Source of the DNA: an uncultured Pseudomonadota bacterium | GTDB lineage: Bacteria > Myxococcota_A > UBA796 > SXON01 | NCBI GenBank assembly: GCA_903875225.1 | Contig: CAIQVJ010000007.1 | Location: forward strand, 89,795 to 153,794 | Length of the DNA: 64,000 nucleotides | Reading direction: 5' to 3' | Part shown: piece after piece, positions 57,609 through 64,000 of the stretch | Layout of the letters: every line of letters starts with the position of its first letter | Position numbering within the stretch: the first letter of the stretch is position 1 | Translations under genes and position numbers: made by a program | Notes under the pieces: generated by a model | Seen by the model: the letters and a program-made list of their open reading frames with translations, nothing else | Database searches by the model: none | Told to the model about the DNA's origin: nothing

Positions 57609-58514
57609 TCACCGGTCGTCCCACCCGAAGGTCATCACGTCACAGAGCGACGTCCCGCCGAGAACCGCGAGGCACAGCCGATCCACGCCCATCGCCATCC
57701 CCGCGCCCTCCGGCAGCTGCGCGACCGCAGCAAGAAACCGCTCATCCTGCTGCACCACCGCCATGCCAGCGGCCCTCCTGGCCTCGTTCTCCGCCGCGCT
57801 CCGCGCCCGTTGCCAGTCCTCGGCCCTCACGAAGGGGAACCCGTCGCAGATCTCGAGACCCTTCCAGAAGAGCTCGCTGCGTTGCGTCACGCTCGGGTCC
57901 GAAGGGTCGAGCCCCGCCGAGGCCGTCATGCCGGCCGGCCAGCCGACCACCCAGGTCGGAGCCTCAGGATCGAGCCGCTGCACCGCCGTGTCGATGATCC
58001 AGGACAGGTGAGCGTCGTCGTCGCCGGCGAGCGGGCCGGGGATCCGCACGAGCTCCGACCAGTCGCGCACAGGAACGCCGAAGCCGCGCTGGATGAGGTC
58101 CCGGACCGTCACCCGGGCCCAGCGCTCCTGCCCCAGCGCCCGCCCCGCCACACGCCGCACCATCGACTCACACTCGCCCTCCACCTCCCCCATCGTCGCG
58201 CCCGCCCGCCCCCACTCGAGCATCGTGAACTCGGGGTTGTGGATCCGCCCCTGGTCCCCCTCCCGGAAGTTCGGGCCCAGCGTGTAGGCAGCGGAGATCC
58301 CCTCTGCAAACAACCGCTTGAGCTGGTACTCGGTGGAGGAGACGAGGTAGCCGCCCTCACGCACCTCGAACGACCGGATGCCGAGATCCGGGCATGTGCC
58401 CGGCACGAGCAACGGAGTCTGAACCTCGATGAACCCGCGAGAGTCCAGCTCGTCGCGGAGCGCCCGGATCACCATCGCGCGGGCTCTCAGCATCGGCTCG
58501 CGAGTGACAGGCAT
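57609..58514 (-). CDS. epmA: EF-P lysine lysyltransferase (EpmA/GenX/PoxA-like class II LysRS paralogue)
   Basis: 'FIEVQTPLLVPGTCPDLGI', 'YLVSSTEYQLKRL', 'LGPNFREGDQGRIHNPEFTMLEW', 'GMAMGVDRLCLAVLG'; no anticodon-binding domain. Confidence 0.85.
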   Translation of the reverse strand: MPVTREPMLRARAMVIRALRDELDSRGFIEVQTPLLVPGTCPDLGIRSFEVREGGYLVSSTEYQLKRLFAEGISAAYTLGPNFREGDQGRIHNPEFTMLEWGRAGATMGEVEGECESMVRRVAGRALGQERWARVTVRDLIQRGFGVPVRDWSELVRIPGPLAGDDDAHLSWIIDTAVQRLDPEAPTWVVGWPAGMTASAGLDPSDPSVTQRSELFWKGLEICDGFPFVRAEDWQRARSAAENEARRAAGMAVVQQDERFLAAVAQLPEGAGMAMGVDRLCLAVLGGTSLCDVMTFGWDDR

Positions 58515-58566
58515 GACGAACCTATGGTAACGTGGGGAGTGCGCCCGCAAAGGCGATGGAGTTCTG

Positions 58567-61362
58567 ATGACGCGTCTCTCTCTGCTGTTGGTCCTTCCGC
58601 TCGGCGCGACCGCCTGTTCCAACCTGAAGGACCATGGCTGGTTGGGGACGAACGGGCAGATCGACACAGCCGACGCGGACGCCGACACCGATGCGGACGG
58701 TGACACGGACACCGACGCGGACGCCGACACCGACACCGCGCCCGACACCGATACCGACACCGATGCGGACACCGACACGGACGCCGACGGAGACACGGAC
58801 ACCGACACCGACGCCGATCCCCTGACCTTCGACGGTCCGGGCGACGTCGTGACCTACGAGACCGACACCGGCGGGTTCGCCGACGTGCCGCTCGGCGACG
58901 TGTCGGGCGAGTCCAACCAGGATGAGGAGTTCTACCTGGTGGTGGTGAACACCAACGTCGACGACGGGGGGTACCGCCTGCGGTACGAAGAGGACGCCAC
59001 GAGCGGTCCGCCCGCGCCTCCGGTGGCCGCTCCTCCGCGAGTGAGCGCGAGAGCGACGCCGCGGCGCGCGATCCGCCACGACTTCGCCCCGCCCCCGCCC
59101 TCCGAGGTCCTGACCGCAGCCGACATCGGTCGGACCGAGCACGAATTCCTCGTCCGCAGCGACCTCAATGACACCGGCAAGATCGCCACGGTGAGCGCCA
59201 AGCTGTGGGCGCTCGGCACCTACGTGGAGATCTGGGTGGACACCGACGTGCAGGTGGACTGGGACTACACGTGCGACGGCACCATCGACGAGCCCGCGCG
59301 CTACGACGCCTACGGGTTCAAGAACTGCGACCTCTCGGACGTCGCCGAGATCATCGACACGAACATCGTGCCGAACCTCGAGGGACTGTACGGCGACGTC
59401 TCCGACGTGAACGGCGACAGCCGGGTGAGCGTGCTCATCACGCCGCAATTGAACGCGATCACGCTCACCTCCACGGACGACACGAACTGGACCTCGGTCC
59501 TGCCTTCGTATGCCTCCCCCGAGACGGACCTCGAGCCCTTCGACCGGGTCTCGAACCCGAGCAGCAACGATCAGGAGATCATCTACGTCTACGCCCCGGA
59601 CCCGTACGGCTACTTCAACACGAGCACCGGGCCGAACGGCCCGAGCGTGGCGTCGTACACCGGGTACCAGCTTGCGGGCGAGTTCGCCCGGTCGTTCACC
59701 AAGCTCATCTCCTACAACCAGCATGTCGTCGTCCCCACGGCGGCGGACGGCCTGGCGCACATCCCGGAAGACGAATGGGTGGTGAACGTGCTCGGAACGG
59801 TCGGCGGGGACCTGTGCGGGTTCGGCGCCGCCTACTACGACGACGTCTGGCGCTACCTGGACGCCCCTCACCTCGCCCCGCTCGCGGCCGCGCCCTCGTT
59901 GGGCAGCCTCGAGACCTTGACCTACGGCGCGCAGTACCTCTTCGGGCGCTGGCTCTATGACCGCGCGGAGCTCGACACGACCGGCATGGGGGCGACCACC
60001 CTCGCCGCGATCATGCAGTCCTCCGACACGGAGGGCGTGGACTCCATCGAGGCCGGAACGGGCGAGACCATCGCCGACCTCACGGTGGCCTGGCAGGTCG
60101 GGATGCTCACCACGGGCGTAACGGACAGCACCGGCGCCCCCCTCGTGAGCCCCGCCGACTACGCCCCGATCGCCGACGCGACCACGATCTACGCGCCCCC
60201 TTCGAGCCCCGGCGCCTTCTACGGCGCCAACGGGTACCAGTCGGGCGTGAACCTCAACGGCGAGAACCACCTCTTCCAGGGCGGCACCACCACCTCCCCG
60301 ACCGAGATCACGGACGACCTCGTCACGACGTCCGACCAGTTCAAATTCCTCTACACCCCTGGATTCGAATTCCAGGGCTTCGCCCAGGGGGGCTTCGGCG
60401 TGAGCGTCGTGCGCCTCACCGGCATCACCTACGACCGCGCGGTGATGCGGTTGCAGGCGTCGGGCGAAGGGATGATCGGCGCCGTCATCCGCTGGAACGA
60501 TCCGGTCGACGTGAACTACTCCGTCGAGAACATCTTCTCCAACTTCGACGTGAACGCCCTCGATCTTCCCGCGCTGCCGACCGACGGATCGATCATCACC
60601 GGCGAGGGCAAGATCGACGCGCCCGTGTCGACCTCCGTCGTCGCCTCAGACGGCTCGACGGGCAGCGCTGACGTCGCGGACACCGATCGGTGGCTGCTCG
60701 ACCTGACAGACCGCCGCGCGTCGGATGTCGTTCCCGTGACCGTGTGGCTCAAGCGCCACTTCTCCGACACCGCGGGCAGCGTCGGCCCTGCAGACCCCTG
60801 GGTCGCGATCGTACCGGACGGCTTTCTCCCGGAGCCCTCCTACTCGGGCACCCACACGAACTACACCTGCACGGGCTCGCCCTCCTTCGCCTATCCGTCG
60901 TCGCTCCTGAGCTACCTGTACTCCCAGCAGATGCTGTCGTCGGCGATGTACTCGGACTCCGACTTCCAGCCGTGCGGCACGCCCCCGACCGACACCGAGA
61001 GCGCACCCACCTGCGACATCGACTGGGACCTGGACGGGATCGCCGACGAGAACGAGGCCATGCCCTCCAACCTCCTCGAGCAGATCGAGGTCGCAGACTG
61101 CACCGCGCAGGGCGCGACGAACGACACCTACGTCCAGAGCTACTCGCTCTCCTGGATGGACGCAGACGAGCAGGATGAGGACGACCGCCCGACCCACGAC
61201 TTCGCCAACAACGCCGGCGGGCGGGTGGTGGACGACGCTGGACAGCAGGAGGAAGGCTACGTCCACGCCGATCTGCCCGGCGGGAGGACGTACCTGCTCG
61301 TGGTCGGCGGCAACAGCGATGTCGGCACCTACGAGATCAACGTCCGGCAGACGCTGCACTAG
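58567..61362 (+). CDS. Large secreted lipoprotein with acidic DTD repeat tether and M30 (hyicolysin)-like domain, apparently catalytically inactive
   Basis: Lipobox 'LGATAC'; DADTDADGDTDTD repeats; 'LEGLYGDVSDVNGDSRVSVLITPQLN'; 'QLAGEFARSFTKLISYNQ...EDEWVVNVLGTVGGDLCGFG'; C-terminal PPC-like 'YVHADLPGGRTYLLVVGGNSDVGTYEINV'. Confidence 0.7.
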   Translation: MTRLSLLLVLPLGATACSNLKDHGWLGTNGQIDTADADADTDADGDTDTDADADTDTAPDTDTDTDADTDTDADGDTDTDTDADPLTFDGPGDVVTYETDTGGFADVPLGDVSGESNQDEEFYLVVVNTNVDDGGYRLRYEEDATSGPPAPPVAAPPRVSARATPRRAIRHDFAPPPPSEVLTAADIGRTEHEFLVRSDLNDTGKIATVSAKLWALGTYVEIWVDTDVQVDWDYTCDGTIDEPARYDAYGFKNCDLSDVAEIIDTNIVPNLEGLYGDVSDVNGDSRVSVLITPQLNAITLTSTDDTNWTSVLPSYASPETDLEPFDRVSNPSSNDQEIIYVYAPDPYGYFNTSTGPNGPSVASYTGYQLAGEFARSFTKLISYNQHVVVPTAADGLAHIPEDEWVVNVLGTVGGDLCGFGAAYYDDVWRYLDAPHLAPLAAAPSLGSLETLTYGAQYLFGRWLYDRAELDTTGMGATTLAAIMQSSDTEGVDSIEAGTGETIADLTVAWQVGMLTTGVTDSTGAPLVSPADYAPIADATTIYAPPSSPGAFYGANGYQSGVNLNGENHLFQGGTTTSPTEITDDLVTTSDQFKFLYTPGFEFQGFAQGGFGVSVVRLTGITYDRAVMRLQASGEGMIGAVIRWNDPVDVNYSVENIFSNFDVNALDLPALPTDGSIITGEGKIDAPVSTSVVASDGSTGSADVADTDRWLLDLTDRRASDVVPVTVWLKRHFSDTAGSVGPADPWVAIVPDGFLPEPSYSGTHTNYTCTGSPSFAYPSSLLSYLYSQQMLSSAMYSDSDFQPCGTPPTDTESAPTCDIDWDLDGIADENEAMPSNLLEQIEVADCTAQGATNDTYVQSYSLSWMDADEQDEDDRPTHDFANNAGGRVVDDAGQQEEGYVHADLPGGRTYLLVVGGNSDVGTYEINVRQTLH
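58661..58822 (+). repeat. Hexanucleotide-based in-gene repeat encoding Asp-Thr/Asp-Ala tether
   Basis: GACACC/GACGCG-type alternation read directly. Confidence 0.85.
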
Positions 61363-61371
61363 CCGCCGCGC

Positions 61372-62295
61372 ATGTCGGAAGATCGCTGGCGCCTGCCCTG
61401 GGGGCGCCGAACCGTGCCGGGCGAACCCCTCACGCCCCTGACGCCCGCGCAGGAGTGGCGCCGCGCGGGCCTGTGGTTCGCGGCGACCTTCGCCTGCGTG
61501 CTGGTGATGTACAAGCTCGTGTGGGACGACGGCCAGGGAACGGTGCTCGACCCGCTGTGGTTCGCGCTCTCCTTCCTCTCGATCCTCGCGGTGCACGAGG
61601 CCGGACACTACGTCGTGGCGCGGCTGCACGGCTTCGAGCTCTCGCCGCCGCTGTTCATCCCGTTCCCTGCGGGGTTCGGCACGCTGGGGGCGGTCATCCG
61701 GTTGCGCTCCCTCCCGCGGTCGCGTCAGGCGCTGCTGGAGATGGGCGCCGCCGGGCCGCTCGCAGGAGCGCTCGTCGCCTTCGTGATCGTGCTCGTCACG
61801 GTGCCGTGGATGCGCGCCGGGGGGCCCATCCCGCCGGCGTCCGAGATCCTGATCTTCAACGACCCGCCGATCCTCAAGCTCCTGGGGCTGCTGCGGATGG
61901 GGCACGTTCCGGGGCGCTACGACAACTACCACCCGGCCACGCTGGGCGCGTGGATGGGGTGCCTGCTCACCGCCAACAACCTCGTGCCCATCGGCCAGCT
62001 GGATGGCGGTCACGTGATGAACGCGATCCATCCCCGATCCGCCAGGGTGCGCACCTACGGGGTGCTCGGCCTGCTCGTGATCCTCGGCTCCTGGTGGCAT
62101 GGCTGGTGGATCTGGGGGGCCATCGCGGTGCTGGGCGGCGCGTGGCGGCCGCTTCCGGTGCCCGAGAGCCCCGCGCTCACCGCGCGCGCGTGGGCCGTGG
62201 TCGCCCTGGTGGCCGTCGTGTTCGCGCTCACGTTCATGCCGATCCCGATGGAGACCGAGACCACCCCGGCGGCGACCTCCGCAGCCGCGCGATAG
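61372..62295 (+). CDS. Site-2 protease family (M50) membrane metalloprotease
   Basis: 'LSILAVHEAGHYVVARLHG' and 'LVPIGQLDGGHVMNAI'. Confidence 0.88.
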   Translation: MSEDRWRLPWGRRTVPGEPLTPLTPAQEWRRAGLWFAATFACVLVMYKLVWDDGQGTVLDPLWFALSFLSILAVHEAGHYVVARLHGFELSPPLFIPFPAGFGTLGAVIRLRSLPRSRQALLEMGAAGPLAGALVAFVIVLVTVPWMRAGGPIPPASEILIFNDPPILKLLGLLRMGHVPGRYDNYHPATLGAWMGCLLTANNLVPIGQLDGGHVMNAIHPRSARVRTYGVLGLLVILGSWWHGWWIWGAIAVLGGAWRPLPVPESPALTARAWAVVALVAVVFALTFMPIPMETETTPAATSAAAR

Positions 62296-62304
62296 ACCCC
62301 CGCC

Positions 62305-63306
62305 ATGGGCTTTTTCCTCGCTTGTGTGCTCCACCTCGGGATCGTGCAGGCGCACGCCGAGACCTTCTACGTCGAGGCGGGGAGCTTCGGCTCGCGCGAC
62401 GATGCCGCCGCCGCCGCGGCGTTGGCCCGCAAGGCCGGGATCGACGTCCGGGTCGTGAAGCGGTTCCAGCTCAACCACGGCTTCGAGTTCGTGCTGCTCC
62501 TCGACGGAGTGGAGGACGGCGCGGCCGCGCAAAAGGCAGCGGCGGACCTGGAGAAGGCCACATCCCAGCACGCTTCCGTGCACTCCAGCGGCGGCGCCCC
62601 GACGCCCGACGTTGCCCCCGAGCAGGCCAAGACCGCTGCGCAGTGGGTGTCGCGGGTCTCCGATGGCCTCGGCGGCCCCACCGGTGGCTCGGACGCCCTG
62701 GCCCGCGCGCCCGTGGTGCACTTCGTGTTCGACCGCACGCTGCGCATCGGGGAGAAGGAAGTGACGATGCAGCAGGACTATTGGCGCGACGGAACGAACC
62801 GCAGGCTCGACGTGAAGACCCTGGGGAACGGCACCGACAGCATCGCGGTGACAACCGCGGGCAGCGCGTGGGTGAAGACGGGCACCACGGTCACCCCGCG
62901 CGACATCGGCGTGCTCGTCGGGACGATCGACGCATTCTCTCCCGAGGCGATGCTCACCGTCGCGCTCGGCGCGACAGACCTCCTGCGGGCCCCGGAGGTA
63001 CAGCGATTCACGCTGCTCGAAGGCGGTGACAGCGGAATCCGGCTCGGAACCGGCGGGGACGAGAGCAACGTGGGCCTGGCCTGGATCGACGTGGACCCGA
63101 GCACCGGGTACCTCGCCGGCGTGCGCTTCGTGACCAGCGGCGGGCCCATCGAGTGGGACCTGCGCGCCTGGAAGGAAGTGGCCCCGGGCGTGGTCGTGCC
63201 GACAGACGTCCGCGTTCGTCGCGCAGATGGTCGCCACGAGATCCTGCGCGTCAAAACGTTGGAAGTGTCACAGAAAGCGCCGGACGGGCTGTTCGCGGCA
63301 CCGTGA
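62305..63306 (+). CDS. Secreted SPOR-like domain protein with beta-rich C-terminal domain
   Basis: 'FYVEAGSFGSRDDAAAAAALARKAGIDVRVVKRFQLNHGFEFVLLLDG' SPOR-like; C-terminal domain resembles LolA-like/outer-membrane lipoprotein-sorting folds (weak). Confidence 0.65.
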   Translation: MGFFLACVLHLGIVQAHAETFYVEAGSFGSRDDAAAAAALARKAGIDVRVVKRFQLNHGFEFVLLLDGVEDGAAAQKAAADLEKATSQHASVHSSGGAPTPDVAPEQAKTAAQWVSRVSDGLGGPTGGSDALARAPVVHFVFDRTLRIGEKEVTMQQDYWRDGTNRRLDVKTLGNGTDSIAVTTAGSAWVKTGTTVTPRDIGVLVGTIDAFSPEAMLTVALGATDLLRAPEVQRFTLLEGGDSGIRLGTGGDESNVGLAWIDVDPSTGYLAGVRFVTSGGPIEWDLRAWKEVAPGVVVPTDVRVRRADGRHEILRVKTLEVSQKAPDGLFAAP

Positions 63307-63404: not shown

Positions 63405-63477
63405 GCTGGTGTAGCTCAACTGGTAGAGCAGCTGTTTTGTAAGCAGCAGGTTGCGGGTTCAAGTCCCACCACTAGCT
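63405..63477 (+). tRNA. tRNA-Thr(TGT), CCA not encoded
   Basis: Acceptor GCTGGTG/CACTAGC, anticodon loop TTTGTAA. Confidence 0.93.
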
Positions 63478-63484
63478 CACCCCT

Positions 63485-63570
63485 GGGCAGATGCCCGAGC
63501 GGCCAATGGGAGCGGGCTGTAAACCCGCCGGCTTATGCCTACAGTGGTTCAAATCCACTTCTGCCCACCA
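63485..63570 (+). tRNA. tRNA-Tyr(GTA), class II with long variable arm, CCA encoded
   Basis: Acceptor GGGCAGA/TCTGCCC, anticodon loop CTGTAAA. Confidence 0.93.
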
Positions 63571-63631
63571 TCTTCGTTCTTTTCAGCACGAGTACCGGTC
63601 ACGCACCTTCCGCGAGGTGCGAGGCCAACGC

Positions 63632-63707
63632 GCGGGCGTAGCTCAGTTGGTAGAGCATCAGCCTTCCAAGCTGAGGGTCACGGGTCCGAATCCCGCCGCC
63701 CGCTCCA
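63632..63707 (+). tRNA. tRNA-Gly(TCC), CCA encoded
   Basis: Acceptor GCGGGCG/CGCCCGC, anticodon loop CTTCCAA. Confidence 0.93.
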
Positions 63708-63714
63708 CATTTCA

Positions 63715-63789
63715 GCCCTTCTAGCTCAGGGGTAGAGCACCCCCTTGGTAAGGGGGAGGCCTCGAGTTCAAATCTCGAGAAGGGCTCCA
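63715..63789 (+). tRNA. tRNA-Thr(GGT), CCA encoded
   Basis: Acceptor GCCCTTC/GAAGGGC, anticodon loop TTGGTAA. Confidence 0.93.
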
Positions 63790-63860
63790 TTTTCGCATGG
63801 TCGGTCCGCCGATCTTTCGTCTCACCTGAATTCGCCTTCACGAGGGCGCGGAGCAAGAGC

Positions 63861-64000
63861 ATGGCCAAGGCAAAATTCGAGCGCAACAAGCCGCACGTCA
63901 ACATCGGCACCATCGGCCACGTTGACCATGGCAAGACGTCCCTGACGGCCGCGATCACCAAGGTGCTCGCGAAGTCGGGCGGTGCGACGTACACGGCCTA
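63861..64000 (+). CDS. tuf: Elongation factor Tu, 5' part (runs off the window)
   Basis: [37 protein letters not shown]. Confidence 0.97.

Follow-up and report, generated by a model that had tools for sequence, protein, structure and literature searches.

An M30 (Lugdulysin)-Like Domain without the HExxH Zinc Site in a Probable Surface Lipoprotein of Class-Wide Distribution

Introduction

The solved M30 peptidase is lugdulysin of Staphylococcus lugdunensis (peptidase family M30, PDB 7bb8/7bb9), in which the HExxH motif reads HEYQH and is followed by a third Glu. Pseudometallopeptidases keep the scaffold of such enzymes after loss of the catalytic residues, and act in protein-protein interactions, regulation or scaffolding (PMC11266112). 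A text search of that review finds no mention of M30 or hyicolysin (PMC11266112). We know of no described M30 pseudopeptidase in the part of the literature that was searched.

Here we describe a gene from a 64,000-nucleotide stretch of bacterial DNA (the window), which belongs to a draft genome of 137 contigs. Its product shares with lugdulysin the overall fold, an FGxxSDVDxxGKV segment, the helix that bears HExxH and the downstream second-site segment, but R-S-F-T-K and an Asn stand where lugdulysin carries HEYQH and the third Glu. It also differs from lugdulysin in its length of 931 amino acids and in its lipobox, acidic tether and long all-beta C-terminal region. Compared with pseudometallopeptidases in general, it represents a bacterial lipoprotein family that is conserved class-wide.

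Results

A predicted lipoprotein with an acidic tether

The layout of the gene and its product is as follows.

58567..61362, + strand: coding sequence of the M30-like pseudopeptidase lipoprotein (open frame, 931 aa)
58567..58617, + strand: lipoprotein signal peptide ending at Cys17 (TAC, followed by SN), from the sequence; the alignment column is Cys in 97% of orthologues
58663..58830, + strand: acidic Asp/Ala/Thr-rich tether, from the sequence; similar low-complexity linkers in about 80 other places of the genome
58831..58992, + strand: small N-terminal beta module (AlphaFold strands at mature residues 5-9, 23-29 and 35-43)
59113..60135, + strand: M30 (lugdulysin)-like domain (domain model, Foldseek match to 7bb8 and profile match to 7bb8)
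60136..61359, + strand: all-beta C-terminal region (AlphaFold model), with invariant Cys and with Asp-rich loops

The N-terminus, MTRLSLLLVLPLGATAC, reads as a lipoprotein signal with a lipobox, and an Asp/Thr-rich tether comes next. The product of the frame is thus predicted to be lipidated at Cys17 and displayed at the cell surface. The first-pass annotation of this DNA had proposed a surface lipoprotein on an acidic tether, and a probable lipoprotein with such a tether is supported here. Acidic tethers of the same Asp/Thr/Ala composition occur in very many proteins of the genome, at about 80 places outside this gene, which suggests a linker type used lineage-wide by surface lipoproteins. 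When the single protein sequence was searched against the PDB with phmmer, the only matches were to the acidic tether. For the C-terminal region (60136..61359) a Pfam scan gave no match, and a weak fold similarity to the collagen-binding domain of ColG was found (E 0.03); its Asp-rich loops are possible calcium loops.

The domain is homologous to M30 peptidases

Neither the protein nor its 30 orthologues gave a credible match in Pfam or NCBIfam, and none of them reached the gathering threshold of Pfam PF10460 (Peptidase_M30). The HExxH-bearing relatives from the phylum that were tested likewise fell below the PF10460 cut-off. The same model matched nothing in the genome of the window, nor anything in the 284 genomes sampled from the phylum, and no control gave a signal either, so that this result is not readable as absence of M30; protein queries found M30-like HExxH relatives where PF10460 matched none.

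A different picture emerged when the 30 aligned orthologues (alignment A1) were used as a profile. Searched against the PDB, this profile matched lugdulysin with an E-value of 1.2e-4, the next and unrelated match being at 0.02. An AlphaFold2 model of the mature protein built with A1 (pLDDT 84.9, pTM 0.86) was compared to known structures with Foldseek, and the two lugdulysin entries were the only matches below 0.001 (E 8e-11). A model of the domain itself (window positions 59113-60135; pLDDT 88.8, pTM 0.89) matched 7bb8 with E 1.5e-10, TM 0.63/0.60 and rmsd 4.6, with other gluzincins (M61, thermolysin, M1) far behind; in the fold alignment, sequence identity with lugdulysin was 13-15%. One M30-type segment is also retained.

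59401..59427, + strand: SDVNGDSRV, which reads FGxxSDVDxxGKV in lugdulysin and the HExxH relatives

The domain is therefore a homologue of M30 (lugdulysin) peptidases on the basis of sequence profile, profile-profile comparison and predicted fold. The M30 likeness noted in the first-pass annotation stands in this form, at E 1.2e-4 by profile, 1.5e-10 by fold and 4.3e-28 through the relatives described below; a direct match to the Pfam Peptidase_M30 model, the HMM comparison that it had suggested, was not obtained. It had held that absence of a significant M30 match would speak against the idea, and such a match appears once a profile is used.

The zinc ligands and the catalytic Glu are replaced

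The two segments on which the first-pass annotation had based its reading are both present in the 931-aa frame on the + strand, QLAGEFARSFTKLISYNQ at 59668-59721 and EDEWVVNVLGTVGGDLCGFG at 59767-59826. The register of the former active site was determined by three alignments that agreed with one another: the profile against lugdulysin, a MAFFT alignment with 27 HExxH relatives, and hhalign. AHExxH aligns to A374-R375-S376-F377-T378-K379 and the xEG motif to N407-V408.

59689..59703, + strand: former HExxH site, R375 S376 F377 T378 K379 (three agreeing alignments)
59785..59787, + strand: N407, in place of the third zinc ligand, the Glu of the (Y/W)xxEG motif (alignments)

The first His is thus replaced by R375, the catalytic Glu by S376 and the second His by K379. 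The earlier claim that the zinc site is lost stands, with all ligands replaced and the second site included, but its register does not: GEFAR (371-375), which had been taken for the remnant of HExxH, lies four residues upstream of R375-K379. That register would have kept the catalytic Glu, and E372 is not this residue, whose place is taken by S376.

The loss extends to the whole family. HExxH was found at the aligned site in 0/42 distinct homologues from the class, in answer to the survey of orthologues that the first-pass annotation had called for. The position of the first His is never His in these 42 members (R in 31, Q in 3, others in the rest), the catalytic Glu is Ser in 32 of the 42, and the position of the second His is mixed. 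The third-ligand position holds D in 21 members, E in 8, H in 4, N in 3 and Q in 3, the remainder having other residues. In the other orders of the class, S, V, Y, F or I stands at the first position and A, T, S or Q in place of the catalytic Glu. R375 was considered as an invariant Arg, since it does not vary among the first 30 orthologues; this was rejected, as additional members from families f2, f4 and f6 have Q, G or A there.

We also looked for a zinc site formed by other residues. No invariant His was found across the 30 orthologues of A1, making a conserved His-based replacement zinc site unlikely. Sequence alignment served to judge the geometry of the former metal site. Of the 42 homologues, 29 have Asp or Glu as the third-ligand residue, which may leave room for some metal binding. 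One member (L125, from genome G031) has AETTH at the former HExxH site, with the Glu and the second His present, Ala for the first His and Leu for the third ligand. A half-decayed relic was considered for this sequence and rejected, as the tree nests it beside sequences that read RSYIK, RSYTN and RSYLR; its Glu and His are more likely secondary.

HExxH-bearing relatives include a paralogue in the same genome

A tblastn search of 58 genomes with the mature part of the protein detected an orthologue in 37 of them, its own included, at 42-67% identity and nearly always in single copy; the 37 include one genome (G056) whose contig may be misbinned, the rest of its family being without the gene. 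With a divergent orthologue (L040) as query of 284 genomes of the phylum, pseudopeptidase members came to light in three more families of this class, together with one weak match outside the class (L076) that reads AHECGH...YMIEG. Used as a query in turn, L076 returned relatives, spread over the phylum, in which HExxH and the third Glu are retained, as well as weak matches to the pseudopeptidase family (best E 5e-9). These reciprocal matches support homology in both directions. The relatives (L076-L096) have a homologous domain with the motif in the same register as in the pseudopeptidase family, and in the alignment 27/27 HExxH relatives keep the H, E, H and third E. A profile of these HExxH relatives (A2) matched lugdulysin with E 3.1e-14 (hmmsearch), and hhalign joined A1 to A2 with a probability of 99.8 and E 4.3e-28. 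In one relative, a single frame of 1081 aa (L076:672-3914) contains an HEFFH protein with a MYXO-CTERM-like tail and the in-frame lipoprotein start of an HExxH M30-like protein; the two are not separated by a stop, which means fused genes or a missing stop.

The genome of the window itself encodes an HExxH paralogue (L091, G000:C19:232672-234006; AHEFNHLIYAWHK...ENPYITEGTSALAQDLTGY) that keeps HEFNH...YITEG. This paralogue resembles the pseudopeptidase in its lipobox and acidic linker; it differs in retaining HExxH and xEG, and at 512 aa is without the long C-terminal extension. Among sampled genomes of the gene's own family, the pseudopeptidase was present in 19/19, whereas a strong HExxH paralogue was present in 6/19, a lower bound in view of the draft genomes and of a query identity of only 35-39%. 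The pseudopeptidase is thus more widely retained than the HExxH paralogue in its own family. Sampling of the class comprised 71 genomes, many of them incomplete drafts.

HExxH was lost once and the former active site is under strong constraint

A tree of the domain was calculated after removal of the motif columns. All 42 pseudopeptidase members fell on one side of a single branch (support 100/99, and present in 100% of bootstrap trees), and this long branch, with a length of 1.2-1.6, separates them from the intact relatives. With HExxH taken as ancestral, as lugdulysin implies, the position of the pseudopeptidases behind one branch indicates a single loss, implying one ancestral event before the orders of the class separated.

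Ratios of nonsynonymous to synonymous substitution (omega) were determined for five close pairs. Omega was 0-0.055 for the motif region, 0.05-0.21 for the domain and 0.09-0.29 for the rest of the protein. Constraint peaks at the former active-site stretch, which indicates that the dead site is being maintained rather than decaying.

Neighboring genes

Two genes follow the pseudopeptidase gene closely on the same strand.

61372..62295, + strand: M50 (site-2-protease-like) peptidase gene (Pfam PF02163, E 5.6e-18), 9 bp past the pseudopeptidase stop
62305..63306, + strand: gene for a SPOR-domain secreted protein (Pfam PF05036, E 8.6e-6), 9 bp past the M50 stop

The SPOR gene adjoins within the gene's own family. 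Adjacency to M50 recurs in genera g1, g2 and g5 of this family (f1), and also in families f2, f4, f5 and f6. No M50 gene was detected in genera g3 and g6 of the own family, in which the pseudopeptidase and SPOR genes are kept, and in one genome (G007) the M50 gene is on a different contig from the pseudopeptidase gene. The absence from g3 and g6 indicates that M50 is a frequent but not a required partner.

Downstream of the SPOR gene is a cluster of tRNA-Thr, tRNA-Tyr, tRNA-Gly and tRNA-Thr (63405-63789). A predicted frame at 63599-63994 on the - strand overlaps the last two of these tRNA genes, and the overlap probably explains its apparent conservation in relatives. On the other side, at 57609-58655 on the - strand and divergent from the lipoprotein gene, is a short protein resembling class-II lysyl-tRNA synthetase (EpmA/GenX-like); its longest frame runs antisense over the tether DNA, and its true start is probably further in.

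Discussion

We conclude, with a probability of roughly 0.85, that the protein descends from M30-type peptidases, is catalytically dead, and is retained as a probable surface lipoprotein that most likely binds a partner or serves as a scaffold. The lost ligands, the kept fold and the strong constraint together argue for this interpretation. Points against it are the missing match to Pfam Peptidase_M30, the long branch to the intact relatives and the acidic residue that many homologues keep at the third-ligand position. Loss of catalysis by the zincin mechanism is strongly supported, the inactivity itself being deduced from the residues present, and the binding or scaffold role may be suggested with less confidence; the repurposing for binding proposed in the first-pass annotation is a reasonable idea. 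In such a scheme the protein would be exported and lipidated at Cys17, and the acidic tether would hold the domain off the membrane. The M30-like fold would be kept, with R375, K379 and N407 in place of the zinc ligands and S376 in place of the catalytic Glu, so that zincin hydrolysis would be impossible. Loss of catalysis would have occurred once, prior to separation of the orders of the class, and the former active-site stretch, since then the part of the protein under the strongest constraint, would most likely serve as a groove for binding peptides or proteins, or as a scaffold, at the cell surface.

Several other explanations bear upon the same data. That the missing residues reflect a sequencing or assembly artefact, or a pseudogene decaying in a single genome, might be raised given a draft in 137 contigs; the orthologue survey has already refuted this, the loss being found in 42 distinct homologues from separate genomes with open frames and dN/dS well below 1, and we give the idea practically no credence. 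It is also very improbable that the likeness to M30 arose by chance and that the domain has an unrelated fold. Such a view could draw on the lack of Pfam or NCBIfam matches and on the identity to lugdulysin of 13-15% in the fold alignment, but independent sequence-profile, profile-profile and fold evidence leads to one family, and the alignments lead to one register.

The more serious alternatives concern what the domain now does. The domain could have kept or gained an enzymatic activity with altered chemistry or another metal site in the old cleft, making it a changed rather than a dead enzyme. In favor of this, conservation is highest around the former active site (omega 0-0.055), R375 and S376 are kept in most of the order (R in 31/42, S in 32/42), and Asp or Glu occupies the third-ligand position in 29/42. 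We nevertheless regard this as improbable, as no invariant His is found in 30 orthologues and the positions of the first His and the Glu vary freely in other orders, where a shared new catalytic set should persist. A narrower form of the binding reading is that the dead domain serves as a regulator or substrate presenter for the adjacent M50 peptidase, capturing a signal or substrate and passing it on to M50. The M50 gene starts 9 bp past the pseudopeptidase stop in the same orientation, and the two genes sit side by side in several genera of the own family as well as in f2, f4, f5 and f6; yet the two are separable, M50 being undetected in g3 and g6 and on another contig in G007, and we consider dedicated service to M50 unlikely, although less so than a changed enzyme.

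A broader proposal, which we offer tentatively and hold to be rather doubtful as a whole, is that of an M30 pseudopeptidase family of single origin and class-wide range, more universal than its HExxH paralogue, in which the dead groove has become a conserved surface site that binds a ligand or is newly catalytic. The family has a bearing on how peptidases are annotated. Annotation led by HExxH leaves families without the motif unannotated, and the present protein goes without a name in Pfam and NCBIfam. Catalysis was lost in one ancestral event, after which the dead site has been strongly constrained, and the HExxH paralogues present in some genomes provide natural controls. The question of why a dead protease is kept thus becomes directly testable in a bacterial surface protein.
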